NCBI RefSeq assembly: GCF_016862895.1
Contig: NZ_BONV01000026.1
Location: forward strand, 1-64,000
Origin: Planotetraspora kaengkrachanensis
Lineage (GTDB): Bacteria; Actinomycetota; Actinomycetes; Streptosporangiales; Streptosporangiaceae
Direction: 5' to 3'
DNA length: 64,000 bases
Below, in pieces: positions 30,926-62,607 of the stretch. The first letter of the stretch is position 1. The number at the start of each line of letters is the position of its first letter. The notes beneath the pieces were generated by a model. That model was not told the origin of the DNA, searched no databases, and worked only from the letters and a program-made list of their open reading frames with translations. The position numbers and the translations under genes were made by a program.

Positions 30926-32875
30926 GTGCGGAACGCCGGAGCGTCCATAGATCCGCCGACGGATCCGCTGTCGGCCGTTCCCGCCTCCGATCCGCCCAAG
31001 AAGCATCCGGTCCGGTCGAACGCCTCCGCCCTGCCTCCCGGCGTCTCCGCCGACATCTTCGGCGAACGGCCGGGGCCGTCCGCACCCGGGCCGTCGGCCG
31101 CGGCGCAGGGCAGCCTCCCCCCGCCCGCGACCCCCGTCGAGCTCTGGCCGGTGATCGAGAAGACGATCGTCGAGGAGCCCGCCCCGCTCGAAGCCGGACC
31201 CGAACCGAAACGGCGGACGCTGCGCTACACGGTCATCGGCCTGGTCCTCCTGCTGCTGCTCGCCTATCTGGTCCCCGCGATCTCCATGTCCGGCCGGATC
31301 CTGCCCGGAACCACGGTCCTCGGCGTCGACATCGGCGGGCAGAGCGTGTCCGACGCGGCGTTGAGCCTGCAGGAGAAGCTGTACACCCAGACCCGCTCGC
31401 CCGTCGTCGTCCGGCAGGGCACCCACCGCATTCCCGTCGACCCGATCGAGGCGGGTCTCCAGTTCGACGCGGAAGCGACCGCGCGTCAGGCGCCGACCGG
31501 CTTCCCCAGCCCGGCGCAGGTCGTGGGGTCGATCTTCGGAGGCCGTGAGATCAGGCCGGTGGTCGCGGTCGACCAGGTCAAGCTGGAGGCGGCCGTGGCC
31601 AAGGAGGTCGGCGCCTCCCTCGAGGACCCGGTGCAGGAGGGCGGCGTCAAGTTCAAGGGGACGATCCCCGTGCCGGTCTATCCGCATCCGGGCAACGGGA
31701 TCGACAAGACGATCGTGGCCAGGGACATCCAGCGGGCCTATCTCAGCCCGGACGTCACGGTGATGGCCGCGGCCGTGAAGGACGACCCCCAGGTCGACCG
31801 GGCCGCCGTCCAGGATGCCGTGGCGTGGGCGAAGCGCGCGGTCGCCGAGCCGATCACGCTGACCATCGGCGCGAAGTCCGTCCAGCTCCCTCCGGCTGTT
31901 TTGGCCGGGCACCTGTCGTTCGTGCCTGAGGGCCGCTCCCTCAAGCCCCGGTTCGAGGCCGCGGCCGCCGCCGTCGGCTTCGAGCACCGCCTGGTCGCCG
32001 ACGAGACCGCGGCGAGGAACGCCACGTTCACGATCGAGGACGGCAAGCCGGTCCTGGTGCACGCCCGGGCGGGCAAGCGGGTCGACACCGGCCGCCTGGC
32101 GGTCAACGTGATCGAGGCGATGGGCGGCGGGAGCCGTACCGTGCCAGTGACGCTGGTCACCGCCCCGCCGGTCGTGACGGACGCGGACGTGCTGAAGATG
32201 GGCGTCAAGGAGAAGATCAGCGAGTTCACGACCTCCTACGCCTGCTGCCAGCCGCGGGTGGCCGACATCCAGGCCGCCGCCCGCCTGCTGGACACCCATC
32301 TGGTCCGGCCGGGGGAGACGTTCTCGTTCAACGAGTACGTCGGGAGGCGGGACGCCGTCGGCGGCTTCAGCGGAGTCGCCATGGTCACCGCGATCCGGGG
32401 CGAGACCGGCTCGGACGTCGCGGGCATGAGCCAGGTCGCGACCACGATGCTCAACGCCGTGGTGCGCGCGGGGCTGGGGGGCATCGAGCGCACGGCCCCC
32501 GACGTCTACCTGCCGCAGTATCCGGCCGGGTTGGACGCCGCGGTGTCCTATCCCGGGCCGGACCTGAAATGGACCAACGACAGTCCGTACGGCGTGCTGA
32601 TCCAGGCCTCGGCGAGCGACACGGCGCTGGTCGTGTCGTTGTGGAGCACCAAGCGGTACGACGTGGAGGTCCGCGATCCGGTCAAGACCCGGTTCCTCCA
32701 CCTCGCGCCGGTTGAGGGGAGCGGGCCGGACTGCGTGCCGGCTCCCGAGCAGCCGGGCTTCACGGCGGAGGTGACACGGGTCCTCAAGCGGGACGGCAAG
32801 GCCGAGGACCGGCAGTCGTTCACGACCGTCTACCACCCCCAGTCCGCCGTCACCTGCCCCGCCCCTCCCGCGTGA
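30926..32875 (+). CDS. VanW-family membrane-anchored protein
   Basis: A 649-residue protein. A Pro-rich cytoplasmic N-terminus of about 90 residues precedes one membrane helix (YTVIGLVLLLLLAYLVPA), so most of the chain is extracytoplasmic. Two peptidoglycan-binding-like repeats follow (LGVDIGGQSVSDAALSLQEKL at about 133, and the related region near 300), then the VanW domain with PGETFSFNEYVGRRD, GGFSGVAMV and MSQVATTMLNAVVRAGL. VanW occurs in glycopeptide-resistance clusters and in general cell-wall proteins; its reaction is not known. GGAGGA lies nine bases before GTG 30926. The TGA is part of the first 53-bp repeat unit. Confidence 0.85.
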   Translation: MRNAGASIDPPTDPLSAVPASDPPKKHPVRSNASALPPGVSADIFGERPGPSAPGPSAAAQGSLPPPATPVELWPVIEKTIVEEPAPLEAGPEPKRRTLRYTVIGLVLLLLLAYLVPAISMSGRILPGTTVLGVDIGGQSVSDAALSLQEKLYTQTRSPVVVRQGTHRIPVDPIEAGLQFDAEATARQAPTGFPSPAQVVGSIFGGREIRPVVAVDQVKLEAAVAKEVGASLEDPVQEGGVKFKGTIPVPVYPHPGNGIDKTIVARDIQRAYLSPDVTVMAAAVKDDPQVDRAAVQDAVAWAKRAVAEPITLTIGAKSVQLPPAVLAGHLSFVPEGRSLKPRFEAAAAAVGFEHRLVADETAARNATFTIEDGKPVLVHARAGKRVDTGRLAVNVIEAMGGGSRTVPVTLVTAPPVVTDADVLKMGVKEKISEFTTSYACCQPRVADIQAAARLLDTHLVRPGETFSFNEYVGRRDAVGGFSGVAMVTAIRGETGSDVAGMSQVATTMLNAVVRAGLGGIERTAPDVYLPQYPAGLDAAVSYPGPDLKWTNDSPYGVLIQASASDTALVVSLWSTKRYDVEVRDPVKTRFLHLAPVEGSGPDCVPAPEQPGFTAEVTRVLKRDGKAEDRQSFTTVYHPQSAVTCPAPPA

Positions 32876-33004
32876 TCATGCACGGATTCGGGATCACCCG
32901 GTCCGGCCTGGGCCGTCGCTGGGCGTGATCATGCACAGATTCGCGATCATCCGGTCCGACCTTGGGTGATGCCGGGCGTGATCATGCACGCCCGGCACCG
33001 TTGC
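32871..33004. repeat. 53-bp-period repeat array, locus 1
   Basis: The core CGTGATCATGCACGGATTCG begins at 32871, recurs with one change at 32924, and its first 14 bases recur at 32977. Both steps are exactly 53 bp. In unit 1, GTGATC (32872-32877) and GATCAC (32892-32897) can pair; unit 2 nearly keeps this. The first core contains the stop codon of the VanW gene, and the array ends at the stop of the convergent dehydrogenase gene, filling the intergenic space. Confidence 0.85.
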
Positions 33005-34150
33005 TCAGCCGCCGGCGTTCCCGGTCGGCACGACGAGGATGCGATCGTCGCCCTGGCGGGGCGCACCGCGGCCGTCCTTGTTGCTGGTGCCGACCCACAG
33101 GCTCCCGTCGGGCGCGGTGACCACCGCCCGCAGCCGGCCGTACTCCCCGGCGTAGAGGGCCTCGGGTCGCCCGACCCGGCCTTCGCCGTTCAGCGGGATC
33201 CGCCACAGCCGCTGGCCGCGCAGCGCCGCCGCCCACAGGGAGCCGTCGGCGTACGCGAGCCCGGACGGCGACGCCTCGTCGGTCGACCAGGTGAGCAGCG
33301 GATCGGTGTACTTCCCGCCTCCGCCCATGCCCTCGACGTCGGGCCAGCCGTAGTTGTGGCCCTTCTCGATCAGGTTGATCTCGTCGTAGGTGTTCTGGCC
33401 GAACTCCGTGGCGTACATGCGGCCACCGGAGTCCCAGGCCAGCCCTTGGACGTTGCGGTGGCCGTACGACCAGATCAGGGTGCCGAAGGGGTTGCCGGGC
33501 GCGGGCTTGCCGTCCAGGGTCATCCGAAGGATCTTGCCGGCCAGGGAGTTCCTGTCCTGGGAGAGCCCGCGCTCGCCGGTCTCGCCGGTCGAGGCGTAGA
33601 GGTAGCCGTCCGGTCCGAAGGCCAGGCGGCCCCCGTTGTGGATCGACCCCTTCGGGATGCCGGTGACGAGCGGGACGGGATCGGACAGGCCGCCGTCGTA
33701 CCGGTAGCGGACCACCCGGTTGTCGCCGTTCGCCGAGAAGTACACGAAGACGTAGTGGTCCGTCGCGAAGCTCGGGGACACGGCCACGCCGAGGAGCCCG
33801 CCCTCCCCGGCCGGCGAAACGCCCTCGATCACCCCGACGTCCGACACCTGGCCCTGCGGGGTGACCCGGACGAGCTTGGCCGAGTCCCTCTCCGTCACGA
33901 GCGCGTCGCCGCCGGGCAGGAACGCGATGGCCCAGGGCACCGCGAGATCCGTCACCAGCGTGCGCGGCGACCCGGACGGCCGCGCCTGCGCCGATCCCTC
34001 CAGCGGGGCGGGCGTCAGGGCACCGCCCTGTCCCGGTGCACCGCCGCCGGCCGCCGGCGCCACAGGCGCGGCGGAGCATGCCGTGGCCGTCGTGATCGTC
34101 ACGGCCAGCGCCAGCGCCAGCGCCCGTGTGAATCGGCCCGTCTTCACCAT
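33005..34150 (-). CDS. PQQ-dependent sugar dehydrogenase-like lipoprotein
   Basis: A 381-residue protein of the soluble glucose/sorbosone dehydrogenase family (six-bladed beta-propeller). A lipoprotein-like signal ends TTATAC-SAAP, so it is probably anchored outside the membrane. Family features: VPWAIAFLPGGDALVTERD, EGGLLGVAVSPSF, SIHNGGRLAFGPDG with the catalytic histidine, and SYGHRNVQGLAWD. These enzymes oxidise sugars using PQQ, though many actinomycete members have no proven substrate. GGGAGG lies about twelve bases before the start. It is divergent from the 2-hydroxyacid dehydrogenase. Confidence 0.85.
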   Translation of the reverse strand: MVKTGRFTRALALALAVTITTATACSAAPVAPAAGGGAPGQGGALTPAPLEGSAQARPSGSPRTLVTDLAVPWAIAFLPGGDALVTERDSAKLVRVTPQGQVSDVGVIEGVSPAGEGGLLGVAVSPSFATDHYVFVYFSANGDNRVVRYRYDGGLSDPVPLVTGIPKGSIHNGGRLAFGPDGYLYASTGETGERGLSQDRNSLAGKILRMTLDGKPAPGNPFGTLIWSYGHRNVQGLAWDSGGRMYATEFGQNTYDEINLIEKGHNYGWPDVEGMGGGGKYTDPLLTWSTDEASPSGLAYADGSLWAAALRGQRLWRIPLNGEGRVGRPEALYAGEYGRLRAVVTAPDGSLWVGTSNKDGRGAPRQGDDRILVVPTGNAGG

Positions 34151-34218
34151 GTCTTCGCGACCTCCCTCGTCCCTTCCATACTCGCGTTTCGCCGCGAAGG
34201 TTCCCTAGGTTTGTTCAT

Positions 34219-35151
34219 GTGAAGATCTGGGTCGCCTCGCAGGACCTCGCCGACGTGTTGTCCGATCTGCCCAAGGAATTCCCGGATGATCCTCCGGAGA
34301 TCGAATGCGCCGTTTACGACGGCAAGGGATCGCCGCCGGGTTCGCCAGAGGAGGTGGAGATCTGGGTGCCGCCGCTCGTCCCGGTGCCCGACATCCCCGG
34401 GCTCCTCGGCCGGATGACGGGACTGCGCCTGCTGCAGACCGTGACCGCGGGCGTCGAGCCGTACCTCCCGCACGTCCCGGCGGGGGCGATGCTCTGCAAC
34501 GCGCGCGGCGTGCACGACGCCGGGACCGCCGAGTGGATCGTCGGCGCGGCCATCGCCGTGCTCCGCGAGTTTCCGGGGTTCGCCGCGGCCCAGGCCCGGC
34601 GCGAGTGGACCTACCACCACACCGGCGTCCTCGACGGTTCCACCGTCCTCATCGTCGGGTACGGCTCGATCGGTGAGGCCGTGGAACGCCGCCTGGCGGG
34701 GTTCGAGGTCGACGTGGTCCGCGTGGCGAGGACCGCGCGCGAGGGCGTCCACGGGGAGCACGCCCTCGCCGGTCTGCTGCCCTCCGCCGACGTCGTCGTT
34801 CTGCTCGTCCCGGTGACGACCGGCACCGTGGGCATGGTGGACGCCCGGTTCCTCGCGCGGATGAAGGACGGGGCGGTGCTCGTGAACGCCGCACGCGGCA
34901 CCGTCGTCGACACGGACGCGCTGGTCGCCGAACTCGAGAGCGGACGGCTGCGCGCCGCCCTCGACGTGACCTCCCCCGAGCCGCTGCCCGCGGACCATCC
35001 CCTGTGGACCGCACCCGGGGCTTTCATCACCCCGCACGTCGCCGGCAGCTCACCGGCGTCCCTGCGGCGGACACGCGCGCTCGTGCGGGCGCAGGTCATC
35101 AGATACATGACGGGCGAGAGACTCGCTAACATGATCACGGGTCATTACTGA
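34219..35151 (+). CDS. D-isomer-specific 2-hydroxyacid dehydrogenase
   Basis: A 310-residue NAD-dependent dehydrogenase. The NAD motif is VGYGSIGEAVERRL; the catalytic Arg lies in NAARGTVVD, Glu in TSPEPLP and His in TPHVAGSS. It reduces a 2-keto acid or oxidises a 2-hydroxy acid; the specific substrate is unknown. GTG 34219 has no ribosome site. TAGGTT (34206-34211) lies seven bases before it, so the mRNA is probably leaderless. Confidence 0.88.
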   Translation: MKIWVASQDLADVLSDLPKEFPDDPPEIECAVYDGKGSPPGSPEEVEIWVPPLVPVPDIPGLLGRMTGLRLLQTVTAGVEPYLPHVPAGAMLCNARGVHDAGTAEWIVGAAIAVLREFPGFAAAQARREWTYHHTGVLDGSTVLIVGYGSIGEAVERRLAGFEVDVVRVARTAREGVHGEHALAGLLPSADVVVLLVPVTTGTVGMVDARFLARMKDGAVLVNAARGTVVDTDALVAELESGRLRAALDVTSPEPLPADHPLWTAPGAFITPHVAGSSPASLRRTRALVRAQVIRYMTGERLANMITGHY

Positions 35152-35187
35152 GCGCTCCAGCTCGGGACGACACGGGCGACCAGGCAC

Positions 35188-35216
35188 TTGACTGGAAGTC
35201 CTGACTGGTCCATTAA
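35188..35216 (+). promoter_or_regulatory. Probable promoter of the second GGDEF/EAL gene
   Basis: TTGACT (35188-35193) and CATTAA (35211-35216) are separated by 17 bases, the best sigma-70-type match in the 179-base gap. Transcription would start near 35223, giving a leader of over 100 bases with no feature that I recognise. Confidence 0.5.
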
Positions 35217-35330
35217 GGAATCCGGAACGTGGCTGCTCCGTGACCTGTAGTGCGTACGGTGAACCTCGTCGCGCGCGGCCGGTTATCAGATCGGTGACGA
35301 CTCGCCGGTTGTCGCCGTTCAGATCAGGCA

Positions 35331-38240
35331 GTGTGCGCAGACTGGCCGTGTGACATGGAGAGTAAAGCCGGGTCGAGGACGGGAGGGGCAGTGACATCAC
35401 ACCCCGCCGGGCGAGACGACGCCGACGCGGCTCCACCTCCGGAGGCGGCGCCGGATCCACCGGCACCGGACCTGAGGGTGCCGGAAACGGAGCCACCGGA
35501 CACGGTGGACGCGCTGACGTCCGGAGCCGCCGGCCCTGGCCGTGAGGCGACGGCCGCGGAGACAGTTGCACAGACGGCTACAGGGACAAGGGACACAGGG
35601 GCGATACGCGTGGACGGCAGGCGCAACCCGAGGGGTTCGCTCACCGCCGCGGCCGGACTCGGCGCGGTCGGGCTCACCGCCGCGTTGATCGGCGGAGGCT
35701 CCTCGTCCGTGATCGCCGCGGTGGCGGGCGTCGCCGCCGGCCTTCTCGCCGCGATCTCGCTGTTCCTGGCCGCCTCCCGCGCCCAGCCGGGGCAAGGGCT
35801 GCGGCCCGCCGCCTCGCGCTGGCTCGCGATGGGCACCCTGACCTGGCTCGTCGGCATCGGGCTGCGCCCGGTCGCCGACGGCACCCCCTTCGTGCTCACC
35901 TTCGCCGACCTGCTGCTTCTCGTCGGGTCCGTGCTGATCTCGATCGGCTGCGGGACCGCCGTCACCCCCTCCGCCTACAGCAGGAGCGCGTTCAGGCAGG
36001 CCGCGGACGCCTACCTGGGCGCCGCGTCGATCTTCACGCTGGGCTGGGTCCTGCTGCTCGGACCCGCCTTCCAGAAGGCGGAGGAACCCGGAGCCTTCAT
36101 CTCCACCCTGGCGCTGCCGATCGTCTGCCTGTTCGCGGCCTGCGCCGTCGCGCCCGCCGTGGCCGCCGCCCGGTCGGGAGGCCGGCTCGTCGGTCTCGCC
36201 GGTGTGATCGTGCTCGGGGCCGTCACCGTGGCCGAGGTGAGCACCGCCCTGGCCCGGCTCAGCGGCGACGACCCGCCCATGGTGACGGTCCTGGTCGCGC
36301 CGGCCGCCTTCCTCCTGCTCGCCGTCGCGCCGTGGCTCGACCAGCGGCGTTTCCGCAAGCCCCTGCCGGCCGCGGTGACGGCCGCCACGCCGCTCGTGCT
36401 GGTGGCCGTCGCCACCGTCGCGGTGGCCGTCCAAGCGGTCGGCGGCGACCGGGACGCGGCCCTTTCCGCCGTCGCGGCCTCCGTCGTCCTCGTCCTGCTC
36501 GGCCGGCTGTTCGTGCTCCTGGTGGAGACCGCGGGCATGCGCCGCCTCGTCGACGTCGGCGAGCGGCAACTCCGCCAACTGGCGGAGAACGCGGGCGACC
36601 TCGTTCTCATATGCGATCACGACGGCGTGATCAGGGAGATCGGCGCGGCCGTCCAGGAGACGTACGGCTACTGCCCCGAAGACCTCGAGGGCCACCCGAT
36701 GTTCGACTACATCCACCCCGAGGACGTGCCCGGCATCCACGCGCTGCTGCGGCGCATGACCGCCTTCGAGGACGCCGACGGGCACGGGACCTGCCGGATC
36801 GCCTGCCGGGTCCGGGCGGCGGACGGCACCTGGCGGCCGACCGAGTCGGTCGCCACCCGGGACGTACGGAACGAGGACCTGATCCTCGTCAGCGTCAGGG
36901 ACATGAGCGACCAGGTGGCGCTGCGCAACCAGGTCACCCACCTGACCTTCCACGACGGCGTGACGGGCCTGCCCAACCGGGCCTACTTCGAGGAGCGCGC
37001 CCGGGAGGTCCTCGCCCGCCGGGGCTCCGGCAGTACCGCCGTGATCTTCCTGGACCTCGACGGCTTCACCGGCGTCAACGACTCGGTCGGCCACGCCAGC
37101 GGCGACTACCTGCTCGGCCAGGCCGCGCGCCGCCTCCGCTCCGCCGTACGCGCCGACGACACGCTGGCCCGCTGGGGCGGAGACGAGTTCGCGGTACTGC
37201 TGGAGGGCGGCGTCTCCTCAGGGGCGGACGCCCAGACCGCGATCGACCTGGCGGAACGGCTCGTCCGGGCGGTCTCGTCCGAGCCCTTCCGGGTGGCCGA
37301 CCGCGACATGGCCCTCACCGCCAGCGTGGGCGTCGCGTTCGCAGAGGACGGCCTGCCCGCCGGCGACCTGCTCCGCAACGCCGACGTCGCGATGTCCCGG
37401 GCGAAGGAACTGGGCGGCCGGCGGGTCGAGGTGTTCGCCGCGCAGATGCACGCCGAGGTCGTACGGCGGCTGGAGATCGCGGCCGACCTCCAAAGGGCAC
37501 TGCTCGACAACCAGTTCGCCATCGAGTACCAGCCCGTCGTCGACCTGGCGACCTCCCGCGTCACCGCAGTGGAGGCGCTGGTCCGCTGGTGGCGGGGAAG
37601 CGAGTTCGTGCCGCCGGAGCAGTTCCTCGGGCCGGCCGAGGACACGGGCCTCATCGTGCCGCTGAGCGAGTGGATTCTGCGCGAGGCGTGCAACGAGGTG
37701 GCCGCGTGGCGGGCCTCCTCGCTGGACATCGGCCTGTCGCTCAACCTGTCCCTGCGCCAGATCACGGCACCGGGGTTCGTCGAGACGATCTCCCAGGCGC
37801 TCACCGAGAGCGGGCTGCCCGCCAGCGCGCTGACCCTCGAGGTCATCGAGGAGATGCTCGTCGAGGACGCCGAGGACACGATCAACAAGCTGTCGCAACT
37901 GCGCGCCCTCGGGGTGCGGCTCGCGATCGACGACTTCGGCACCGGCTACGCGTCGCTGGCGTTCCTCCGCCAGCTGCCCGTCGACATGATCAAGATCGAC
38001 CCGTCGTTCGTCTCCGGGCTCGGCCGGGACGAGACGCTCACGCTGCTGACCCGCACGATCGTACGGCTCGGCCATGATCTCGGCCTGATCGTCGTCGCCG
38101 AGGGGATCGAGCGGCCCGAGCAGCTCGAACTGCTGCGGGAGATGGGCTGCACCCGCGGCCAGGGCTACCTGGTCGGCCGCCCCATGGCCGCCCGCGGCGT
38201 CGACTCCCTCATGCGGACATCCCTCCAGAACACTGCTTGA
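35331..38240 (+). CDS. Membrane PAS-GGDEF-EAL protein (c-di-GMP turnover)
   Basis: A protein of up to 969 residues. A Pro/Ala-rich N-terminus of about 100 residues is followed by some nine hydrophobic helices (about 105-400), a PAS domain (about 415-535, NAGDLVLICDHDGVIREIG), a GGDEF domain with WGGDEF preceded by RADD at I-site spacing, and an EAL domain with EALVRW, NLSLRQ, EVIEEM, IDDFGTGYAS, KIDPSF and EGIE. Both catalytic sets look intact. The position just before ilvB matches a Streptomyces GGDEF/EAL gene of the same layout. The start is uncertain: GTG 35331, ATG 35355 and GTG 35391 are all in frame, and only the last has a purine-rich site nearby, very close. Confidence 0.85.
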   Translation: MCADWPCDMESKAGSRTGGAVTSHPAGRDDADAAPPPEAAPDPPAPDLRVPETEPPDTVDALTSGAAGPGREATAAETVAQTATGTRDTGAIRVDGRRNPRGSLTAAAGLGAVGLTAALIGGGSSSVIAAVAGVAAGLLAAISLFLAASRAQPGQGLRPAASRWLAMGTLTWLVGIGLRPVADGTPFVLTFADLLLLVGSVLISIGCGTAVTPSAYSRSAFRQAADAYLGAASIFTLGWVLLLGPAFQKAEEPGAFISTLALPIVCLFAACAVAPAVAAARSGGRLVGLAGVIVLGAVTVAEVSTALARLSGDDPPMVTVLVAPAAFLLLAVAPWLDQRRFRKPLPAAVTAATPLVLVAVATVAVAVQAVGGDRDAALSAVAASVVLVLLGRLFVLLVETAGMRRLVDVGERQLRQLAENAGDLVLICDHDGVIREIGAAVQETYGYCPEDLEGHPMFDYIHPEDVPGIHALLRRMTAFEDADGHGTCRIACRVRAADGTWRPTESVATRDVRNEDLILVSVRDMSDQVALRNQVTHLTFHDGVTGLPNRAYFEERAREVLARRGSGSTAVIFLDLDGFTGVNDSVGHASGDYLLGQAARRLRSAVRADDTLARWGGDEFAVLLEGGVSSGADAQTAIDLAERLVRAVSSEPFRVADRDMALTASVGVAFAEDGLPAGDLLRNADVAMSRAKELGGRRVEVFAAQMHAEVVRRLEIAADLQRALLDNQFAIEYQPVVDLATSRVTAVEALVRWWRGSEFVPPEQFLGPAEDTGLIVPLSEWILREACNEVAAWRASSLDIGLSLNLSLRQITAPGFVETISQALTESGLPASALTLEVIEEMLVEDAEDTINKLSQLRALGVRLAIDDFGTGYASLAFLRQLPVDMIKIDPSFVSGLGRDETLTLLTRTIVRLGHDLGLIVVAEGIERPEQLELLREMGCTRGQGYLVGRPMAARGVDSLMRTSLQNTA

Positions 38241-38244
38241 TTTT

Positions 38245-38263
38245 GCCGAGCCTTCGGCTCGGC
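38245..38263 (+). terminator. Stem-loop after the PAS-GGDEF-EAL gene
   Basis: GCCGAGCC-TTC-GGCTCGGC is a perfect 8-bp hairpin capped by a stable C(TTCG)G loop, five bases after the stop codon. There is no following T-run. It is also the first copy of a word repeated in the adjacent island. Confidence 0.6.
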
Positions 38264-38274
38264 GGGCGCTGTGT

Positions 38275-38707: not shown

Positions 38708-38761
38708 GCGCAGAGCAATAAACACACCATCCCGGATGCTGAGACTTCCGTCCCAGATGAT

Positions 38762-38791
38762 TTGACGTGAGGGCTCGGGATCGGACATGGT
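38762..38791 (+). promoter_or_regulatory. Promoter of the ilvB leader
   Basis: TTGACG (38762-38767) and CATGGT (38786-38791) are 18 bases apart. The -10 ends six bases before the leader-peptide ATG, so the leader peptide is probably translated from a leaderless mRNA. Confidence 0.6.
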
Positions 38792-38797
38792 GTAGCC

Positions 38798-38845
38798 ATG
38801 CATCGCGATGGGATTCTCGTAGTACTTCGCAGGCGCGCAGCCTGA
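38798..38845 (+). CDS. ilvB attenuator leader peptide
   Basis: A 15-codon frame encodes MHRDGILVVLRRRAA. The run Ile-Leu-Val-Val-Leu (38813-38827) contains all three branched-chain amino acids, as expected of a leader peptide that measures the charging of their tRNAs. Ribosome stalling here would decide between the antiterminator and the terminator downstream. Confidence 0.85.
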   Translation: MHRDGILVVLRRRAA

Positions 38846-54287: not shown

Positions 54288-54305
54288 GGGGTAACCTGAC
54301 TGGTG

Positions 54306-54625: not shown

Positions 54626-54652
54626 CCTTCACCGGTCCCCGGGGGCACGCCC

Positions 54653-55651
54653 TCACATGATCGGCCGGGTGGCCGGCGTGTCCCCGTCCAACGCCATCGC
54701 GATCGCCCCGTAGAGGGGCGCGTCGTCCACGAAACGCGCCGGCACGACCTCCGGCGGGTACGGCACGGCCTGCCGTACGGCCTCGCGCAGGCGGGGCATG
54801 ATCGACGAGGCCGCGCCCATCATGCCGCCTCCGACCACGACGCGGGACGGGTCGAGCGTGACGCAGAGGTTGGCCACGGCGAGCCCCAGCGCGTCGAGGG
54901 CGTCCTCGAGCAGGGTCCGCACGCGCGGCTCGTCGCCGCGCTCGAACAACTGGGCCGCGGTCACCGGACTGCCGAGCAGTTCGGTGCCGCGTTCGGCCAG
55001 CGCGATCCCGGAGACGTACTCCTCCAGATGCGCCCGCGCGGCGTCGGGCTCCGCTCCGTCCTGCACGCGCGCCGCGACCGCGGCGTGTCGGGGGACGCGC
55101 AGGTCGTCCGCGTGACGGGCGAGGTAGGCGATCTCGCCCGCCGCGCCGTGCGAGCCCCGGGCCACCCGGCCGTCGACGACGAGCCCGGCCGCGAGCCCGG
55201 TGCCGAGGTTGAGGTAGATCCCGTCACGCACCCCCGCGAGGTTGCCCCACCTCAGTTCGGCGGTGGTCGCGGCCTTCACGTCGTTGGCGACGTACACCGG
55301 CGTCCCGCCGAACTCCTCCCGCAGCAGCCCGGGCAGTGGCAGCCCCTCCCACCCCGGCACGTTGGGCGCGAGCCGTACGACGTCGTCGCGGACGATGCCG
55401 AATGTGGACACGCCGACCGCGACCAGTTCTCCGGCCCGCGAGGCGAGCAGCGCACGGCAGGCCTCCACGGTGCGGCGCACCACCTCGGCCGCCCCTTCGA
55501 AGCCGCGGGTCTCCAGGCGCGTCACCTCCAGGACCGGTAGCGTCGCCCCGGGCGCTCCCGTGGCACCCGCCGGTGCCACGGTGAGCGCCACCTTGGTGCC
55601 CCCGAAATCGATGCCCAGCACGTGGGGGAGCGGCCTCGCGGTTCCGCTCAC
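54653..55651 (-). CDS. ROK-family sugar kinase
   Basis: A 332-residue ROK protein without a DNA-binding domain. The phosphate motif LGIDFGGTKVALTV is at the start; YVANDVKAATTAELRWGN and IYLNLGTGLAAGLVVDG follow, with the catalytic Asp in NDV. The usual zinc-site cysteines of ROK kinases (CxCGxxGC) are missing: after GSHGAAGEIAYLARHAD the loop holds no cysteine. It probably phosphorylates the sugar brought in by the adjacent ABC transporter. Its GTG overlaps the permease stop (GTGA), so it is the last gene of the operon. Confidence 0.88.
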   Translation of the reverse strand: MSGTARPLPHVLGIDFGGTKVALTVAPAGATGAPGATLPVLEVTRLETRGFEGAAEVVRRTVEACRALLASRAGELVAVGVSTFGIVRDDVVRLAPNVPGWEGLPLPGLLREEFGGTPVYVANDVKAATTAELRWGNLAGVRDGIYLNLGTGLAAGLVVDGRVARGSHGAAGEIAYLARHADDLRVPRHAAVAARVQDGAEPDAARAHLEEYVSGIALAERGTELLGSPVTAAQLFERGDEPRVRTLLEDALDALGLAVANLCVTLDPSRVVVGGGMMGAASSIMPRLREAVRQAVPYPPEVVPARFVDDAPLYGAIAMALDGDTPATRPIM

Positions 55652-56835
55652 GTGGTGCTGCCGCGCCGGGCGAGCGAGTCGATGGCCACGGCGAGCGCGA
55701 GGACCGCGGCGGTGACCATGTACCTGACGGAGGAGTCCACGCTCAGCAGGAACATGCCGTTCGTGATCGACTGGATGACCAGGATGCCGAGCAGCGCCGC
55801 GTAGGTCCGCCCACGGCCGCCGAACAGCGACGTTCCGCCGATGACCGCAGCGGCGATCGCCATGAGGAGGATGTCGCTGCCGCCCGAGCCCTGGTTGACG
55901 GCCGACAGGCGGCTCGCCGACAGGATGCCGCCGAAGGCCGCGAGCGTGGACGACAACACGAACGCCAGCACCCGGATCCGGGTCACGCTGATGCCCGCCC
56001 GCCTGGCCGCCTCGACGTTGCCGCCGACGGCGTACATCCACCGGCCGAAGGCCGTGTGCCGCAGCACGAGGTCGAAGGCGACCACGAGCGTGCCGAAGAT
56101 CACCAGGAGGAGCGGCACGCCCCGGTCGGCCGACATGACCAGTACGGCTCCCGCCAGCACCGCGGTCAGCGCGCCGATCTTGACGGCGGCCCACCACGCC
56201 GGCGGCACGGGCAGCTCGGCCGCGAGCCGCAGCCGCCGGTTGACCAGGCTCGACCCGCCGGAGGTCAGGACCAGCAGAGCGACGATCGTCCAGGCGAGCC
56301 AGGCCGGCAGCCAGGTGTCGCTCAGCTTGGCGACGAAGCCGTCGAAGGGCAGGTTGACGATGCCGCCCTCGCCGAGCAGGTAGAGCAGCAGGCCCTGCCA
56401 GCCGATCAGACCGGCGAGCGTGACGACGAACGACGGCATCCTGAGCTTGGTGAACATGATCCCGTGCAGGAGGCCGACCAGCGCTCCGGCCGCCAGGGCG
56501 ACGACGATCGCCAGGATCGGGTTCCAGCCCTGCCGTACGGACAGGATGGCCATGACGACCGCGCACAGGCCGCTGACCGATCCCGCGGACAGGTCGATCT
56601 CGCCCAGCAGGAGCACCATGATGATGCCGAGCGAGATCGTCCCCGTCGCCGCCATCTGCAGCGCGAGGTTCGTGAGGTTCTCCGGGGACAGGAAGTGCTC
56701 GTTGAGCGAGCCGAAGACCACGGCGATCGCGACCAGGGCGCCGACCACCGGCCAGGCGCCGAGGTCCCCGTGCCGCAGCCGCTCGACCGCCTCCTTCGGC
56801 GTGTACGGCTTTCGCGTGACGGTGGCGGCGTTCAT
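55648..56835 (-). CDS. Sugar ABC transporter permease (XylH/MglC type)
   Basis: A 395-residue permease with about ten to twelve helices and the family loop GEIDLSAGSVSGL near residue 70. It lacks a signal peptide and starts with a short cytoplasmic tail. It forms the channel for the ATPase and binding protein encoded upstream; the ATPase stop overlaps its start (ATGA). Xylose, ribose or galactose are typical substrates of the family. Confidence 0.92.
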   Translation of the reverse strand: MNAATVTRKPYTPKEAVERLRHGDLGAWPVVGALVAIAVVFGSLNEHFLSPENLTNLALQMAATGTISLGIIMVLLLGEIDLSAGSVSGLCAVVMAILSVRQGWNPILAIVVALAAGALVGLLHGIMFTKLRMPSFVVTLAGLIGWQGLLLYLLGEGGIVNLPFDGFVAKLSDTWLPAWLAWTIVALLVLTSGGSSLVNRRLRLAAELPVPPAWWAAVKIGALTAVLAGAVLVMSADRGVPLLLVIFGTLVVAFDLVLRHTAFGRWMYAVGGNVEAARRAGISVTRIRVLAFVLSSTLAAFGGILSASRLSAVNQGSGGSDILLMAIAAAVIGGTSLFGGRGRTYAALLGILVIQSITNGMFLLSVDSSVRYMVTAAVLALAVAIDSLARRGSTT

Positions 56836-57551
56836 GCGGCGGCTCCGGTGATGGCGGCCACGATCGACTCCTGGGTGGCGTCGGCCGTGCGGAACTCGCC
56901 GGCGTTGCGGCCGAGACGCAGCACGACGACGCGGTCGCTGACGGCGCGCACGTCGGCGAGGTTGTGGGAGATGAGCAGTACGGCGAGGCCGCGTTCGCGC
57001 AGCCGCCTGATGAGGTCGAGCACCTGGGCGGTCTGCTCGACGCCCAGGGCGGCGGTCGGCTCGTCGAGGATGACCAGGCGGGGCTCGCCGATCAGCGCGC
57101 GCGCGATGGCCACCGACTGGCGCTGGCCGCCGGAGAGCATGGCCACGGGCACCCTGATGTCGCGGATGCGCACATCGAGCGAGGTCAGCAGGTCACGCGC
57201 GGATCGTTCCATGCGGATGTGGCTCAGCAACGACCACTTCCGGCGTTCCGCGCCGAGGTACAGGTTGGCCACGACGTCGAGGTTCTCGCAGAGCGCGAGG
57301 TCCTGGTAGACGGTCGAGATGCCGAGCCGCTGGGCGTCGTGCGGGTTGCCGATGTGCGCCGGCTCGCCGTCGATCGTGACGCCTCCGGAGTCGGGGCCGA
57401 CCACGCCGGCGATGACCTTCACCAGGGTCGACTTGCCGGCCCCGTTGTCGCCGACCAGGGCGACGACCTCGCCGGGGTGCAGGTCCAGGCTCACCTCCTG
57501 GAGAGCCTGGACCGCGCCGTAACGCTTGGACACGTTTTTCGCGGAGATCAT
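56832..57551 (-). CDS. Sugar ABC transporter ATPase
   Basis: A 239-residue ATPase with a single nucleotide-binding domain: Walker A GDNGAGKST, signature LSGGQRQSVAIARAL, Walker B LVILDEPTAALG and switch histidine in LLISHNLAD. Ribose/xylose-type ATPases are usually about 500 residues with two domains; the one-domain form is an actinomycete variant and should act as a homodimer. The start follows directly on the TAG stop of the binding-protein gene. Confidence 0.93.
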   Translation of the reverse strand: MISAKNVSKRYGAVQALQEVSLDLHPGEVVALVGDNGAGKSTLVKVIAGVVGPDSGGVTIDGEPAHIGNPHDAQRLGISTVYQDLALCENLDVVANLYLGAERRKWSLLSHIRMERSARDLLTSLDVRIRDIRVPVAMLSGGQRQSVAIARALIGEPRLVILDEPTAALGVEQTAQVLDLIRRLRERGLAVLLISHNLADVRAVSDRVVVLRLGRNAGEFRTADATQESIVAAITGAAA

Positions 57552-58655
57552 CTACTGGATGCCCGCCTTCGCGCACGCGTCCTTGAGCTCCGGTGTGCAG
57601 ATGTCGGACGCCTTGTAGAAGCCGTCCTTGACGATGGTCCCGGCGATCTTGTCCGCGGTGACGGGGATGGGGTCGAGCAGGAACGAGGGGATGCTCGCGG
57701 TGCCGTTGTTCATGGTGGTGGGCGCCGTGGGCTTGTCGCCCTTGGCCAGCGCGACCGCCAGCTCGGCCGACTTCTCCGCCTCGGCCCTGATGTCGAGGTA
57801 GATGGTCATGTACTGGTCGCCGCTCAGGATGCGCTGGACGGCGGCGAGCTCGGAGTCCTGGCCGGTGATCGGCGGCATGGTGCTGTAGCCCGCGCGCTTC
57901 ATGGCGGCGATGGCGCCGCTGGCCATGCCGTCGTTGGCGGACAGGACGCCCACGATGTTCTCCCGGCCGAGGGCGGTGATGGCCTGCTCCATCTCCTGCT
58001 GTGCCTTGTCGGGGCTCCAGTCGGGCGTGTCGAACTCCCGGCCGATCTTGACCTTGCCGTCGAGGACGTTGTGTGCGCCCTTCTTGTAGTCGGCCGAGCT
58101 GGGGTCGGTCGGGGAGCCGTGGATCATCACGATCTGGCCCTTGTCCACCGTCCCGGCCGCGGTCAGCGCGTCGAGCAGGCCCTGCCCCTGCATCTCACCG
58201 ACCCGGACGTTGTTGAACGACACGTAGTAGTCGTAGCCGATGCCGGAGATCAGACGGTCGTATGCGATGACCGGCACGTTCTTCTGCTTGGCCTGGTTGA
58301 CCAGCGGGGCCACGGCCGCGGCGTCGACCGCGTCGAGCACCAGCACGTCGGCGCCCTGGGTCAGGGCGGCCTCGACCTGCTGCTGCTGTTTGGTGGCGTC
58401 CTGGTCGGCGTTGGAGTAGAGGAGCTCGCAGTCCGCGCAGAGGGCCTTCACCTTCGCCTCGAACAGCGGCCGGTCGAAGGCCTCGTACCGGGTCGTCTTC
58501 GACTCGGGCAGGAAGAGGGCGATGGTCTTGCCGCCGCCGCCCTCCTCTCCTCCGGGCTGCGTGGAGCCCGTGGTCGAACCGTTCCCGCATGCCGCGGCGA
58601 GCAGAAGCGCCGCGGCGGATATGGCAGCGGATATGGCCGGCGTTCCTCGACGCAT
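57552..58655 (-). CDS. Sugar-binding lipoprotein (XylF type)
   Basis: A 367-residue solute-binding protein. The signal ends LLLAAAC-GNG, so the mature protein is a lipoprotein. A Gly-rich linker is followed by the periplasmic-binding fold: IALFLPESKTTRYEAFDRPLFE, LYSNADQDATKQQQQVEAALTQGADVLVLDAVD, and the hinge region VLSANDGMASGAIAAMKRAG. The motif set is closest to xylose-binding XylF/ChvE proteins. It is the first gene of the operon, divergent from the ROK regulator. Confidence 0.92.
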   Translation of the reverse strand: MRRGTPAISAAISAAALLLAAACGNGSTTGSTQPGGEEGGGGKTIALFLPESKTTRYEAFDRPLFEAKVKALCADCELLYSNADQDATKQQQQVEAALTQGADVLVLDAVDAAAVAPLVNQAKQKNVPVIAYDRLISGIGYDYYVSFNNVRVGEMQGQGLLDALTAAGTVDKGQIVMIHGSPTDPSSADYKKGAHNVLDGKVKIGREFDTPDWSPDKAQQEMEQAITALGRENIVGVLSANDGMASGAIAAMKRAGYSTMPPITGQDSELAAVQRILSGDQYMTIYLDIRAEAEKSAELAVALAKGDKPTAPTTMNNGTASIPSFLLDPIPVTADKIAGTIVKDGFYKASDICTPELKDACAKAGIQ

Positions 58656-58687
58656 TGGACACGATCCTTTCTCACGACCCGGGGGGT

Positions 58688-58712
58688 TGATAAGAAAGGT
58701 AATTTACTATCA
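58688..58712. promoter_or_regulatory. Candidate ROK-regulator operator
   Basis: TGATA (58688-58692) and TATCA (58708-58712) are inverted around an AT-rich centre containing GGTAATTTAC. This is the only AT-rich patch in the divergent gap between the binding-protein gene and the ROK regulator, and ROK repressors favour such AT-rich palindromes. It could control both directions. Confidence 0.5.
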
Positions 58713-58836
58713 GGTGGGATGACTAGGGGTTGGGGAAGATCACGTTCGCGGAGGCCGCATGGTGCAGGGCGATCCACTGATGATCAACTGGCCCGCCTTC
58801 CGCGGCGGGTATGTCAACCTTGGGAACGTGGTGAGT

Positions 58837-60027
58837 ATGAGCGGCGGGACCGCCAACACGACGAGCCTGCTCAGGGTGATGAACGAGCGGGCGGTGTTCG
58901 GCGAGATCTTTCGGCTCGGCAAGGTCTCCCGGCCCGAGCTCGCTCAGGCCACCGGGCTGTCCAAGCCGACGATCTCCATGGCGCTCGCCGATCTGGAGCG
59001 TGCCAGACTGGTCCGCCCCGTCGGCCTGCGGACCGGCAACGCCGGTCGCGCCGCCCTGCTGTACGAGATCCGCCCGCAGGCGGGCGCGGTGCTGGCGGTC
59101 GACATCGGCCGGGCTTACGTCAGGCTCGCGCTCGCCGACCTGGTCGGCGACATCGTCGCGCGCAGGGACGAGCCGTCGCGGGCGGAGAGCTACGACGAGG
59201 TGCTCACCCAGCTGTCGGGGATCGTCGACCAGCTCACCGCCGAGGCGGGCATGGCCCGCGCGGACATCACGCTCAGCGTGTTCGGCACCCCCGGCATCCA
59301 CGACAAGGAGACGGGGATCCTGCGGCTCGCCCCCAATCTCCCCGGCTGGGAACAGCCGGGCGCGGTCGAGCGGCTCGCCGACGTCACCGAGTCGCCGTAC
59401 GTCGTGGAGAACGACGTCGACCTCGCCGCGGTGGGGGAGGGCGCCTACGGTCTCGGGCAGGGCGTGTCCCACTTCGTCTACGTCTCCATCGGCACCGGGA
59501 TCGGCATGGGCGTCGTCATCGACGGCAAGCTCTACCGCGGCTCCCAGGGGGCGGCGGGCGAGATCTCCTACCTGCCGGTCGGCGAGGGGGATCCGCTGGT
59601 CAACCCGGGACGCGGCATGTTCGAGTCCGTCGCGTCCGCCGACGGGGTGGTGGCCGCGGCGGGACGGCTCGGCATGGTCGCGGCCACGGCCAAGGAGGTC
59701 TTCGACGCGGCCAGGTCGGGCGACGAGATCGCCGGCAGGGTCGTCGCGGCCGAGGCCGACCACGTCGCGCACGCGCTCGCGGGCGTCACCGCCGTGCTCG
59801 ACCCCGAACTGGTCGTCCTCGGCGGGGGGATCGGGGCGCAGGCGGGCGACCTGCTGATCGAGCCCGTCGCCAGACGGCTGGAGTCGCTCGTCGCGCTGAG
59901 GCCGCCGCGGATCGAGAGCTCCACACTGGGCTCTGACGCGGTGCTCCTCGGCGCCATGGCCTTCGGGCTCACCACCGCCCGTGATCTCGTCTTCGAGCGC
60001 GCGGTGGCCACGACGCCGCTCGGATGA
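58837..60027 (+). CDS. ROK-family transcriptional repressor (XylR-like)
   Basis: About 396 residues. An N-terminal winged helix (FRLGKVSRPELAQATGLSKPTISMALADLERARLV) is fused to a ROK sugar-binding domain (AVDIGRAYVRLAL, YVVENDVDLAAVGE, FVYVSIGTGIGMGVVIDG). As in the kinase next door, the CxCGxxGC zinc motif is absent. It is divergent from the sugar ABC operon and most likely represses it until the sugar binds. The frame is open back to 58759, but MSGGTANTTSLL matches the family start; GTG 58831 is another candidate. Confidence 0.88.
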   Translation: MSGGTANTTSLLRVMNERAVFGEIFRLGKVSRPELAQATGLSKPTISMALADLERARLVRPVGLRTGNAGRAALLYEIRPQAGAVLAVDIGRAYVRLALADLVGDIVARRDEPSRAESYDEVLTQLSGIVDQLTAEAGMARADITLSVFGTPGIHDKETGILRLAPNLPGWEQPGAVERLADVTESPYVVENDVDLAAVGEGAYGLGQGVSHFVYVSIGTGIGMGVVIDGKLYRGSQGAAGEISYLPVGEGDPLVNPGRGMFESVASADGVVAAAGRLGMVAATAKEVFDAARSGDEIAGRVVAAEADHVAHALAGVTAVLDPELVVLGGGIGAQAGDLLIEPVARRLESLVALRPPRIESSTLGSDAVLLGAMAFGLTTARDLVFERAVATTPLG

Positions 60028-60072
60028 TGAGACCGTTGTTCGACCTCCGAGACGAGCCGGTAAGGTACACGC

Positions 60073-61119
60073 ATGGAGTCGAGCAGCATCCGCCTGGCGG
60101 TGATCCCCGGTGACGGCATCGGCGGCGAGGTCGTCGCCGAGGGCCTCAAGGTCCTTCAGGCCGCGGGCGTCAAGGCGGAGACGGTCGAGTACGACCTGGG
60201 AGCCAAGCGTTACCACCTGAGCGGGGAGACCCTCCCCGACGGCGTGCTCGAGGAGCTTCGCGGCTTCGACGCGATCCTGCTCGGCGCGGTGGGCGACCCG
60301 AGCGTCCCGCCGGGCGTCCTGGAGCGCGACCTGCTGCTGCGGCTGCGTTTCGAGCTCGACCACTACGTGAACCTGCGCCCGGTCAAGCTCTATCCGGGTG
60401 TGGAGACCCCTCTCGCCGGCGTCCGCCCCGAGGACCTCGACATGATCGTCGTCCGTGAGGGCACCGAGGGCCTGTACGCCGGAGCCGGCGGAGTCCTGCG
60501 CCGCGGCACGCCGCAGGAGATCGCCACGCAGGAGTCCCTGAACACGGCCTTCGGCGTCGATCGCGTCGTCCGCTACGCCTTCGACAAGGCGCAGGCGCGG
60601 CCGCGCCGCAAGCTCACCCTGGTCCACAAGACCAACGTGCTGACCTTCGCCGGCGACCTGTGGGCCCGTACGGTCGACCGGGTCAGCGTCGAGTATCCCG
60701 AGGTCACGACCGACTACTGCCACGTCGACGCGGCCTCGATGTTCTTCGTCAACCAGACGCAGCGGTTCGACGTGATCGTCACCGACAACCTCTTCGGCGA
60801 CATCCTCACCGACATCGGCGCGGCCGTCGCGGGCGGCATCGGGCTCGCGGCCAGCGGCAACGTCAACCCGTCCAGGACCTCGCCGTCCATGTTCGAGCCG
60901 GTCCACGGTAGCGCGCCCGACATCGCGGGCCAGGGCAAGGCCGACCCCACGGCGACGATCCTGTCGGTCGCCATGCTCCTCGACCACGTCGGCCTCGGCG
61001 CCGTGGCCGCCCGGGTCGAGCAGGCCGTCGCCGACGACCTGCTCGGTCGTCAGGTGGCCGGATCGGGCAGGCAGACCCGCGAGATCGGCGACGACATCGC
61101 CGCACGAGTAGCCGGCTGA
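60073..61119 (+). CDS. leuB: 3-isopropylmalate dehydrogenase
   Basis: A 348-residue enzyme: [16 protein letters not shown] at the start, [21 protein letters not shown] with the substrate arginine, [11 protein letters not shown], and the NAD/metal region [27 protein letters not shown], followed by [14 protein letters not shown]. It oxidises and decarboxylates 3-isopropylmalate in leucine synthesis. TAAGGT (60061-60066) ends six bases before the ATG and there is no ribosome site, so the mRNA is probably leaderless. A very strong terminator follows. Confidence 0.96.
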
Positions 61120-61145
61120 GTCCGGGCCGCTCACCCCCTTCCACA

Positions 61146-61183
61146 GCGCACGGCGGCCCGGTTCGGGCCGCCGTGCGCTTTTT
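61146..61183 (+). terminator. Intrinsic terminator after leuB
   Basis: GCGCACGGCGGCCCG pairs with CGGGCCGCCGTGCGC over 15 bp with a GTT loop, followed by five T. Confidence 0.92.
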
Positions 61184-61265
61184 CATACCCATCGCATGCC
61201 CTAGGTTTCCGTTAGCCGCTTCGTCGCACAATGAAGATGACGACGTAGAGAGAAGGATCCACGCC

Positions 61266-62357
61266 ATGACCACCCAGCTCAGCTTCGACGTGCAGCTCAA
61301 CCAGCAGGCCCGCACCGTGGCCGAGCGGGAGCAGGTACTGGCGAGCCCCGGCTTCGGGCAGACGTTCACCGATCACATGGTCTCCATCGACTGGACGGAA
61401 GGACGCGGCTGGCACGACGCACGGCTCGAGCCGTACGGGCCGCTGCTCCTCGACCCCGCCACCTCGGTGTTCCACTACGCCCAGGAGCTGTTCGAGGGAC
61501 TCAAGGCCTACCGGCAGTCCAACGGGTCGATCGTGGCGTTCCGCCCCTACGCCAACGCCGCCCGGTTCAACCGGTCCGCCCTGCGCATGGCGATGCCGGA
61601 ACTGCCCGAGGAGACGTTCGTCGAATCACTCGAACTGCTCGTCCAGACCGACCGCGACTGGGTGCCGACCGCCGAGGGGCACAGCCTCTACCTGCGCCCC
61701 TTCATGATCGCCACGCAGACCGGGCTCGGGGTGAACCACCCGTCGCGGAACTACCGGTACATGGTGATCGCCTCGCCGGCGGCGTCGTACTTCTCCGGCG
61801 GTGTGCGGCCCGTCTCGGTCTGGTTGTCGACCGAGTACACCCGGGCGGCCCCCGGCGGCACCGGGTTCGCCAAGTGCGGCGGCAACTACGCGGCCGCCTT
61901 CGTCGCCCAGCGCCAGGCCGTCGAGGAGGGCTGCGACCAGGTCGTCTGGCTCGACGCCTTCGAGCACCGCTGGGTCGAGGAGATGGGCGGGATGAACCTG
62001 TTCTTCGTCTTCGGCGACCGCCTCGTGACCCCTGCGCTGACCGGCACCCTGCTCCCCGGCATCACCCGTGAGTCGATCCTGAGCATGGCCGGCGAGCTCG
62101 GGATCAAGGCCGAGGAGGGCAAGATCTCCATCGAGGAGTGGCAGTCGGCCTGCGAGGCGGGGGAGCTCACGGAGGTCTTCGCGTGCGGGACCGCCGCCGT
62201 CGTCACGCCCGTGGGCACGGTCAAGGGTTCCGACCGCGGCTGGACGATCGGCGACGGCACCCCCGGCCCGGTCACCCTCAAGATCCGTGAGGAGCTGATG
62301 GGCATCCAGTTCGGCACCCGCCCCGACACCCACAACTGGGTCCACAAGATCTGCTGA
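61266..62357 (+). CDS. ilvE: Branched-chain amino acid aminotransferase
   Basis: A 363-residue class IV PLP aminotransferase. The PLP lysine is K203 in [28 protein letters not shown] and [11 protein letters not shown] are family features. It performs the last step of Val, Leu and Ile synthesis. AGAAGGA precedes ATG 61266 by about nine bases; the frame opens at 61173 inside the leuB terminator, which is rejected. A hairpin and a G-run tract follow the stop. Confidence 0.96.
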
Positions 62358-62358
62358 C

Positions 62359-62375
62359 CCCACCCGGCGGGTGGG
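62359..62375 (+). terminator. Hairpin immediately after ilvE
   Basis: CCCACCCG and CGGGTGGG face each other around one G, so the usable stem is about 6-7 bp with a small loop. It starts two bases after the stop codon. No T-run follows; instead a run of G-tracts begins. Confidence 0.5.
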
Positions 62376-62403
62376 CTGGGGTCGGGTTGGGGTTGGGGTT
62401 GGG
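62373..62403 (+). other. Six-tract G-quadruplex motif in the ilvE 3' region
   Basis: Six runs of three or four G are separated by two-base loops (CT, TC, TT, TT, TT), including telomere-like GGGGTT units. It lies on the same strand as the ilvE mRNA. Confidence 0.7.
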
Positions 62404-62607
62404 TGTGATCACGCACAGGTCCGCGCACCCACCCCCCACCCCCCGCGTGATCATGCACGGGTTCGGGAAAGGTCCCCGCGACCTGCACCCTCCCCCCGCG
62501 TGATCATGCACGGATTCGATGGAAGGCCCTCCGACCAGGCCTTCCACCGGCCGTGACCATGCAGGGGAAGGGGCAAGCCGGCCAGGCCGGCCTTTCGCGG
62601 ACCTGGG
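62404..62607. repeat. 53-bp-period repeat array, locus 2
   Basis: Cores related to CGTGATCATGCACGGATTCG begin at 62404 (diverged), 62446, 62499 (exact) and 62552 (diverged). Steps are 42, 53 and 53 bp. The sequence between cores differs from locus 1, so the spacing is better conserved than the spacers. The array lies between the convergent ends of ilvE and the O-methyltransferase gene, ending near the latter's stop. Confidence 0.85.

Follow-up and report, generated by a model that had tools for sequence, protein, structure and literature searches.

Arrays of a conserved core in 53-bp register behind gene ends in Planotetraspora

Repetitive extragenic palindromes (REPs) and bacterial interspersed mosaic elements (BIMEs) occur in hundreds of short extragenic copies that lie mostly downstream of genes, between convergent or co-directional open reading frames, and that are often oppositely oriented and regularly spaced (PMC3733652, PMC2817692). 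REPs are palindromes of 20–40 bp, most of them tagged GTAG or CGTC, the GTAG ones being tied to the REP-associated tyrosine transposases (RAYTs) (PMC3733652, PMC2817692), and some REP classes are also described without a known transposase (PMC3733652). In position and number this is the nearest known kind to the arrays reported here, which were found in the window, i.e. the whole analysed stretch of 64,000 nucleotides from Planotetraspora kaengkrachanensis (contig NZ_BONV01000026.1, positions 1 to 64,000), and in which a 13-bp core, CGTGATCATGCAC, recurs mostly every 53 bp behind gene ends. Like REPs and BIMEs, these arrays lie downstream of genes with convergent or co-directional neighbours (31 of 33 arrays in the part of the genome studied closely); the difference is that here core and tail form same-direction tandem units of 53 bp, and that the unit has no covarying stem and begins with CGTG instead of carrying a REP tag. 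A word search of PMC3733652 found no mention of fragments of the core, of actinobacteria or of the three genus names looked for.

The DNA uptake sequence dialects of the Neisseriaceae combine a short group-wide core with lineage variants and many copies per genome (PMC3630211). A kept core with lineage variants is found here as well; the difference lies in number and place, as there are hundreds and not thousands of copies, 180 of the 190 core matches in the closely studied part being intergenic and clustered and only 10 lying inside genes, as single copies, so that a dispersal into coding regions is not seen. Inverted pairs of uptake sequences act as terminators. The mycobacterial interspersed repetitive units (MIRUs) are actinobacterial intergenic tandem repeats too, one class of them near 53 bp, and their units are alike over the whole length, whereas conservation in the arrays is limited to the core and a second block; this distinction follows the general description of MIRUs. 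Behind eukaryotic rRNA genes, Sal-box arrays of tandem sites of about 20 bp form, together with TTF-I, a protein roadblock after the gene end, and the likeness to the present arrays is one of layout only. Clustered regularly interspaced short palindromic repeats differ in that the spacers here hold the conserved second block and that arrays occur at dozens of scattered loci (no search for cas genes was made). No description of such arrays was found in the open-licence literature, which omits most subscription journals; of the papers listed for the core itself, PMC5839063 proved to be of relevance, as the source of an ARG box, and the other listed titles dealt with different topics.

We regard the chances as about evenly divided that the arrays are sites for a sequence-specific DNA-binding protein located directly behind gene ends, where it would have a boundary role. 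DNA binding is favoured because the sequence is conserved at fixed places, because the register is kept, and because the core fits the ARG box, the operator of the arginine repressor ArgR.

Register, unit and position

The genome of P. kaengkrachanensis (G000; 8.77 Mb, 96 contigs), to which the window belongs, holds 505 exact copies of the core (259 forward, 246 reverse) and none of the same letters reversed. Studied closely were 1.42 of the 8.77 Mb, namely contigs C1 (606 kb), C3 and C4 together with the window; since these contigs were picked for holding most of the first 100 listed core matches, the density of arrays in this part is biased upward. C1 holds 57 and C2 three of the first 100 listed exact cores, which suggests an uneven spread of arrays over the chromosome.

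The 53-bp spacing first noticed in the window is a rule throughout the studied part, where it applies to 106 of the 129 consecutive same-strand steps below 130 bp; four of the remaining steps measure 54 bp, two 52 bp, and 17 others lie between 19 and 106 bp. Same-strand core distances on C1 peak at 53, 106, 159 and 212 bp, and in the relatives within the genus 385 of 428 steps are of 53 bp, some loci being counted twice. The preliminary description had taken 53 and 42 bp as five and four helical turns, which would place all cores on the same side of the DNA. This phasing found no support: the 14 own steps below 100 bp that fall outside 52–54 bp have no 10.5-bp periodicity (Rayleigh p = 0.34), the same holds for 14 such steps in the relatives (p = 0.15), and other lineages have other steps, i.e. 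41 bp in the G051 stretches that were read, 30–58 bp in G352 and 34–124 bp in G411. Multiples of 10.5 bp beyond the 53-bp step are thus unsupported by the step statistics.

In the aligned unit the core is followed by RGGTTCG, a loose stretch of 12 bases, the block CYGACCTGCGC (TGASCWG when judged by eye) and another loose, partly C-rich stretch of about 10 bases. Each 53-bp unit has two conserved blocks, the core with its tail NNNTTCG and, about 31 bp further on, the smaller TGASCWG block, with variable sequence between them. What had been described as a 20-bp core does recur, but is better split into the 13-bp core and a 7-bp tail, RGGTTCG, which by eye is mostly missing from the innermost copy of an array. 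At the outer edge of one minus arm (C1, about 450760–450870), short degenerate repeats with GATCAC continue past the outermost core in steps of less than 30 bp.

For the placement relative to genes, genes were called with our own codon-usage caller, gaps of at least 60 bp were counted, and a gap with at least two cores was taken as an array. In the 1.42 Mb there are 33 array gaps; arrays occupy 16 of the 111 convergent gaps, 15 of the 380 tandem ones and 2 of the 227 divergent ones. The preference for convergent gaps that the two window arrays had suggested is borne out by these numbers (odds ratio 4.1 over tandem gaps, p = 2.5e-4, and 19 over divergent ones, p = 7e-7), but exclusivity is not, and a strictly convergent placement is ruled out by the 15 tandem and two divergent arrays among the 33. 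Of 47 half-arrays, 36 start at the 3' end of a gene and 11 at a 5' end; those at 3' ends begin at a median distance of 15.5 bp from the stop codon, and in six half-arrays the stop codon TGA is contained in the outermost core. There are 14 two-sided and 19 one-sided arrays, and in 13 of the 14 two-sided ones the layout is strictly head-to-head, all plus cores lying left of all minus cores. Genes lying between far-apart arms are ordinary ones (GNAT, M20 peptidase, UbiA, aminotransferase). By extrapolation from the studied 16% of the genome, whose core-rich contigs hold 33 arrays, Planotetraspora arrays probably stand behind more than 100 gene ends.

In the window itself, cores begin at 32871, 32924 and 32977 (array 1) and at 62404, 62446, 62499 and 62552 (array 2), all as first described, with steps of exactly 53 bp throughout except for the 42 bp between 62404 and 62446. 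The cores at 32871, 32924, 32977, 62446 and 62499 are without mismatch; those at 62404 (TGTGATCACGCAC) and 62552 (CGTGACCATGCAG) have two mismatches apiece. With at most one mismatch, the 12-mer GTGATCATGCAC is found seven times in the window against 0.32 expected, a number reached in none of 100 shuffles, and these seven matches are six of the array cores and an unrelated site at 25425. It is also correct that the spacers differ, yet the two adjoining 53-bp stretches are 81% alike in array 1 and 77% in array 2. According to our gene calls both arrays do lie in convergent gaps, between the gene pairs given below with the other features (strand in brackets; inverted repeats have none).

32871–32883 (+): core 1 of array 1, exact; holds the stop codon TGA (32873–32875) of the upstream gene
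32903–32913 (+): second motif of unit 1, CCGGCCTGGGC (consensus CYGASCWGCGC), at unit profile positions 32–42
32924–32936 (+): core 2 of array 1, exact
32956–32966 (+): second motif of unit 2, CCGACCTTGGG, from the unit profile
32977–32989 (+): core 3, innermost of array 1, exact; RGGTTCG tail absent
32971–32996: inverted repeat GCCGGGCGTG / CACGCCCGGC spanning core 3; the 80 nt around it have a fold z of -2.8
62404–62416 (+): outermost core of array 2, two mismatches; next core 42 bp on
62446–62458 (+): core of array 2, exact
62478–62488 (+): second motif of the 62446 unit, GCGACCTGCAC, from the unit profile
62499–62511 (+): core of array 2, exact
62531–62541 (+): second motif of the 62499 unit, CCGACCAGGCC, from the unit profile
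62552–62564 (+): innermost core of array 2, two mismatches; the aligned copies of P. phitsanulokensis and P. mira read TGATCATGCA
62517–62549: inverted repeat around the second motif, 12-nt arms, 92% complementary
30926–32875 (+): gene for a VanW-like protein, flanking array 1, its end inside core 1
33005–34150 (-): gene of the glucose/sorbosone dehydrogenase family, convergent, flanking array 1
61266–62357 (+): gene for a class IV aminotransferase, flanking array 2
62608–63270 (-): gene for an O-methyltransferase, convergent, flanking array 2

Conservation and turnover at orthologous loci

Between orthologous units, compared in 81 ungapped unit pairs that cover 60 own units and 22 of the 33 array clusters, identity is highest for the core (94.3%), followed by the tail (79.7%) and the second block (73.0%), and falls to 55.6% for the linker and 52.5% for the spacer. 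For the own genome and P. mira, identity is 80.5% at fourfold codon sites and 70.5% in array-free convergent gaps, and the latter differ in length in 16 out of 16 cases. Some loci occur twice among the 33 ortholog pairs (M1 with L086 and L121, L301 with L306), and the mean spacer identity is lowered by non-orthologous unit pairs, the best unit-by-unit spacer pairs often reaching 0.6–0.7; part of the low mean is therefore due to the gain and loss of units, of which the conservation of the core is independent. Because core identity exceeds the neutral level and array-free gaps vary in length, core and spacing resist change, and judged from these alignments they look constrained by selection while the spacers would be free to vary. 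Of the window arrays, array 1 is present in P. mira (4 cores) and absent from strain A-T 1434, and array 2 has its equivalents in both P. mira and P. phitsanulokensis.

These comparisons also bear on an origin by ordinary tandem duplication, i.e. a functionless minisatellite in slow decay. It would be in line with such an origin that copy number varies between species by whole 53-bp units, that a few adjacent units are nearly identical (about 85% or more in 3 of 60 adjacent spacer pairs), and that several arrays in G352 and G411 keep a constant step which differs among arrays. However, for most adjacent spacers the likeness hardly exceeds that between spacers from different arrays (52.5% versus 45.4%) although the register is kept, cores outlive spacers between species, and a single core is common to hundreds of copies at dozens of loci. 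The spacer and core comparisons thus already contradict a minisatellite, which we consider highly improbable, and the preliminary description was right in not treating the arrays as a simply decaying tandem duplication.

Several loci differ in larger ways. At C3:231105–232911 (L064:11105–12911; L301–L304) the two arms are separated by an M20 peptidase gene in the own genome and in G104, and at the same 231-kb locus of C3 the arms are contiguous and the gene is absent in P. mira, P. silvatica and P. thailandica, the simplest reading of which would be an insertion of the gene in the common ancestor of the own genome and G104. In another case the distance between the arms is about 1.8 kb in P. 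mira (L101:2279–4124) versus about 0.2 kb in P. silvatica (L081:2617–2792), and the gene caller placed no gene with typical codon usage in the 1.8-kb stretch. A further P. silvatica array (L120:2690–3060) runs mainly opposite to its orthologue at C1:393950–394250 of the own genome. Finally, the outer-unit spacers of the plus and minus arms are 91% alike at C1:28614/28976 and 85% alike at C1:100204/100622, i.e. above other pairs from different arrays, pointing to a possible inverted duplication or gene conversion inside the locus.

Folding of the arrays and the candidate binder

Before the cores lies a C-rich, G-poor leader (C-G skew 0.33, as compared to 0.06 after other stop codons), which in the two distant genomes G411 and G352 reaches C fractions of 0.62–0.65 and G fractions of 0.07–0.11, the skew in Planotetraspora being the same but weaker. 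Such a leader would suit an element that acts at the RNA level, where the transcribed arrays would serve both convergent genes as terminators of the Rho or hairpin type and the inner cores would pair into a stem. Folding at the centres of two-sided arrays is indeed unusually strong (mean z -3.0; 10 of 14 below -2), and both arrays of the window fold well (z -2.8 and -4.4). An RNA-level function is unlikely nonetheless. Taken together, the inner ends of the 19 one-sided arrays are on a par with controls in their folding (z -1.23 versus -1.07; below -2 in 5 of 19 versus 7 of 40 controls), and a terminator hairpin at every inner end was rejected on these counts. Among 93 units there are no covarying pairs between unit columns, for which reason an RNA structure of the unit was likewise rejected, and searches against Rfam at the gathering threshold gave no match in the window and eight loci. 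Moreover, about half of the arms in tandem gaps oppose transcription, and a terminator needs neither an invariant 12-mer nor an exact 53-bp step.

If, instead, the arrays act as DNA sites, a putative DNA-binding protein would occupy the tandem cores behind gene ends, and adjacent bound molecules could, thanks to the fixed register, assemble into one regular complex. Where arrays face each other at convergent gaps, as they often do, they would then act as a boundary from both sides, at which the transcription of either gene is stopped or insulated. The binder might be ArgR or a protein of its specificity, which is the only named candidate; the core resembles an asymmetric ARG box. The data show the copy number, the register, the pattern of conservation, the place after stop codons, the head-to-head arrangement, the return of the core in other actinobacterial families and its agreement with the ARG-box model; the binding of a protein, its identity with ArgR and the boundary role are inferred, as is the insulator, terminator or nucleoid function that the preliminary description had proposed.

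For a Streptomyces coelicolor fragment that ArgR binds in band shifts, Table 1 of PMC5839063 names CTCTCCGTGATCATGCACCC (11.8 bits) as the ARG box, and one listed S. coelicolor ARG box contains CCGTGATCATGCAC; the fragments had been picked with an earlier model and the ARG box was assigned by computation (PMC5839063). We built an ARG-box model from the other 43 boxes, leaving out the core-bearing one, which scores 11.3 in this model as compared to an average of 11.6 for the boxes included. The 190 own cores have a median of 8.9 bits, a score attained by 0.031% of the 1,417,946 20-mers, they make up 13 of the 25 best ARG-box sites, and none of 200 column-permuted models reaches their mean. What the two have in common is thus that the core fits the published sequence model and that one box contains it, and ArgR could be able to read the core. 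They differ in that ARG boxes are degenerate and lie mostly near start codons, whereas here a near-invariant core is arranged in 53-bp tandem behind genes, with 36 of the 47 half-arrays at 3' ends. One match to Arg_repressor (PF01316) was found in 17 of 20 array-bearing and in 19 of 20 array-free genomes. ArgR is a candidate binder, but an unproven one.

A number of observations weigh against a protein-bound boundary or against ArgR as the protein in question. Arms in tandem gaps point with the genes in 10 cases and against them in 8, as read from the gap survey, with 6 and 7 such cases, respectively, in G411 and G352, and as they point both ways about equally a strictly one-way (polar) terminator is disfavoured. 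The C-rich, G-poor run before the cores could also mean that the arrays are read as a single strand or as RNA. In PMC5839063 no change in transcription was seen for the core-bearing S. coelicolor box, and ARG boxes occur singly or as adjacent pairs, mostly near start codons (PMC5839063). The ARG-box model is not specific to the cores, which account for only 95 of the 441 sites at or above the core median, and the outer variant of G186 and G119 scores as low as 2.0. Arg_repressor is missing from the array-bearing genomes G050, G090 and G084, which are drafts with possible gaps, and the presence of ArgR fails to explain where arrays occur. Last, the spread is patchy, with core pairs 47–57 bp apart in 15 of 250 genomes of the family (control 0) and arrays of the GTGATCATGCA core in 5 of 353 genomes of other families (G350, G411; G352; G470, G558).

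Distribution, dialects and possible spread

With one genome per species, at least 87 stretches with two cores 37–67 bp apart were found, all of them from Planotetraspora among the matches listed. Among the 250 family genomes, the five from the genus contain 165–698 copies of GTGATCATGCAC and G059 contains 552; four other genomes have 24–37, and each of the remaining 240 has at most six. At the level of the class, a search that allowed wider gaps matched 7 of 394 genomes (G000, G119 and five from other families; control 0), and at the level of the phylum a stricter pattern matched 2 of 396 genomes (G000 and G352) and none of 358 outside the class. Where the GTGATCATGCA core occurs elsewhere, it has lineage-specific tails and different spacings. 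In stretches of 200 kb from G411 and from G352, cores lie in 4 of 9 and 5 of 14 convergent gaps and in 0 of 21 and 0 of 18 divergent ones, one tandem match of G352 being in a 31-bp gap outside the counted gaps, and steps of 30–45 bp make up 9 of 17 and 12 of 13 of the steps below 130 bp, respectively. Two distant families thus have the same core and the same preference for gene ends.

Tail and geometry vary between lineages. In strain A-T 1434 the tail is mostly RGGTTCC, and two of its stretches (L159, L160) carry variant cores such as CGTGACCTTGCAC at the inner array ends beside normal cores, with a near-inverted pair in L160. The P. thailandica stretches that were read have the usual core CGTGATCATGCAG followed by AAGTTCG in 53-bp steps, and their inner cores face each other over about 11 bases. 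G051 stretches have a 41-bp step and a reversed second block, as well as two pairs near 53 bp. In g50 the copies alternate in direction at distances of about 29 and 58 bp, and in g65 the core is GTGATCWTGYA, the outer unit often being GTGATCTTGTAGTTTGTCGCA. One may tentatively see in this, though with less than even confidence, a patchy actinobacterial gene-boundary system whose binder would read the near-invariant GTGATCATGCA core in several families while tail and geometry drift as dialects (53 bp, 41 bp, alternating 29/58 bp, 30–45 bp), the rigid 53-bp lattice being its form in Planotetraspora; the binder might then be a hexameric ArgR turned architectural, or another protein of like specificity.

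In turn, the patchy class-wide spread of the same core with different tails is what would be expected of a dispersed non-autonomous mobile repeat, similar to REPs and BIMEs or to miniature inverted-repeat transposable elements, that was spread by an enzyme recognising the core, the tails being dialects and post-gene gaps the least harmful places. Because of this spread and the lineage tails the explanation stays strong, and further points agree with it: the inverted two-arm layout is like that of transposon ends, hairpins whose stem contains the core are present in the low-copy genomes G025 and G089, the spacers of outer 53-bp units from opposite arms of a locus can be 85–91% alike, and cores avoid genes (10 of 190 matches) and divergent gaps. 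However, core conservation at orthologous places lies above the neutral level while spacers decay, which is unlike dead copies, and the RAYT-type domain Y1_Tnp (PF01797), the transposase domain searched for, is absent from nine of ten array-bearing genomes (G000, G022, G125, G104, G059, G050, G090, G051 and G186; partial matches in G077), other transposases not having been searched for. A RAYT-driven REP was rejected on this ground; among array-free genomes the domain is present in G027, G058 and G067 and was not found in G060, G066 and G068. Viral contigs yielded three stretches with single cores and six stretches of low G + C content with other repeats, and a phage link was likewise rejected. 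On balance we hold a mobile repeat to be possible but somewhat doubtful.

The operator of a self-regulated gene was also considered and rejected for the array-poor genomes, in which 14 single matches among 20 stretches look coding (11 in called genes, 3 by frame); the other six stretches do not (three in G025, one each in G089, G119 and G109).

If a protein reads the core behind gene ends, some Actinomycetes would mark or insulate the ends of their genes in a way not described before. If the arrays are a mobile repeat, they would form an abundant family that lacks a RAYT enzyme and in which the resident copies show more conservation than expected under neutrality. In both cases the combination of a rigid 53-bp register with decaying spacers offers a clean case in which selection on spacing can be separated from selection on sequence.

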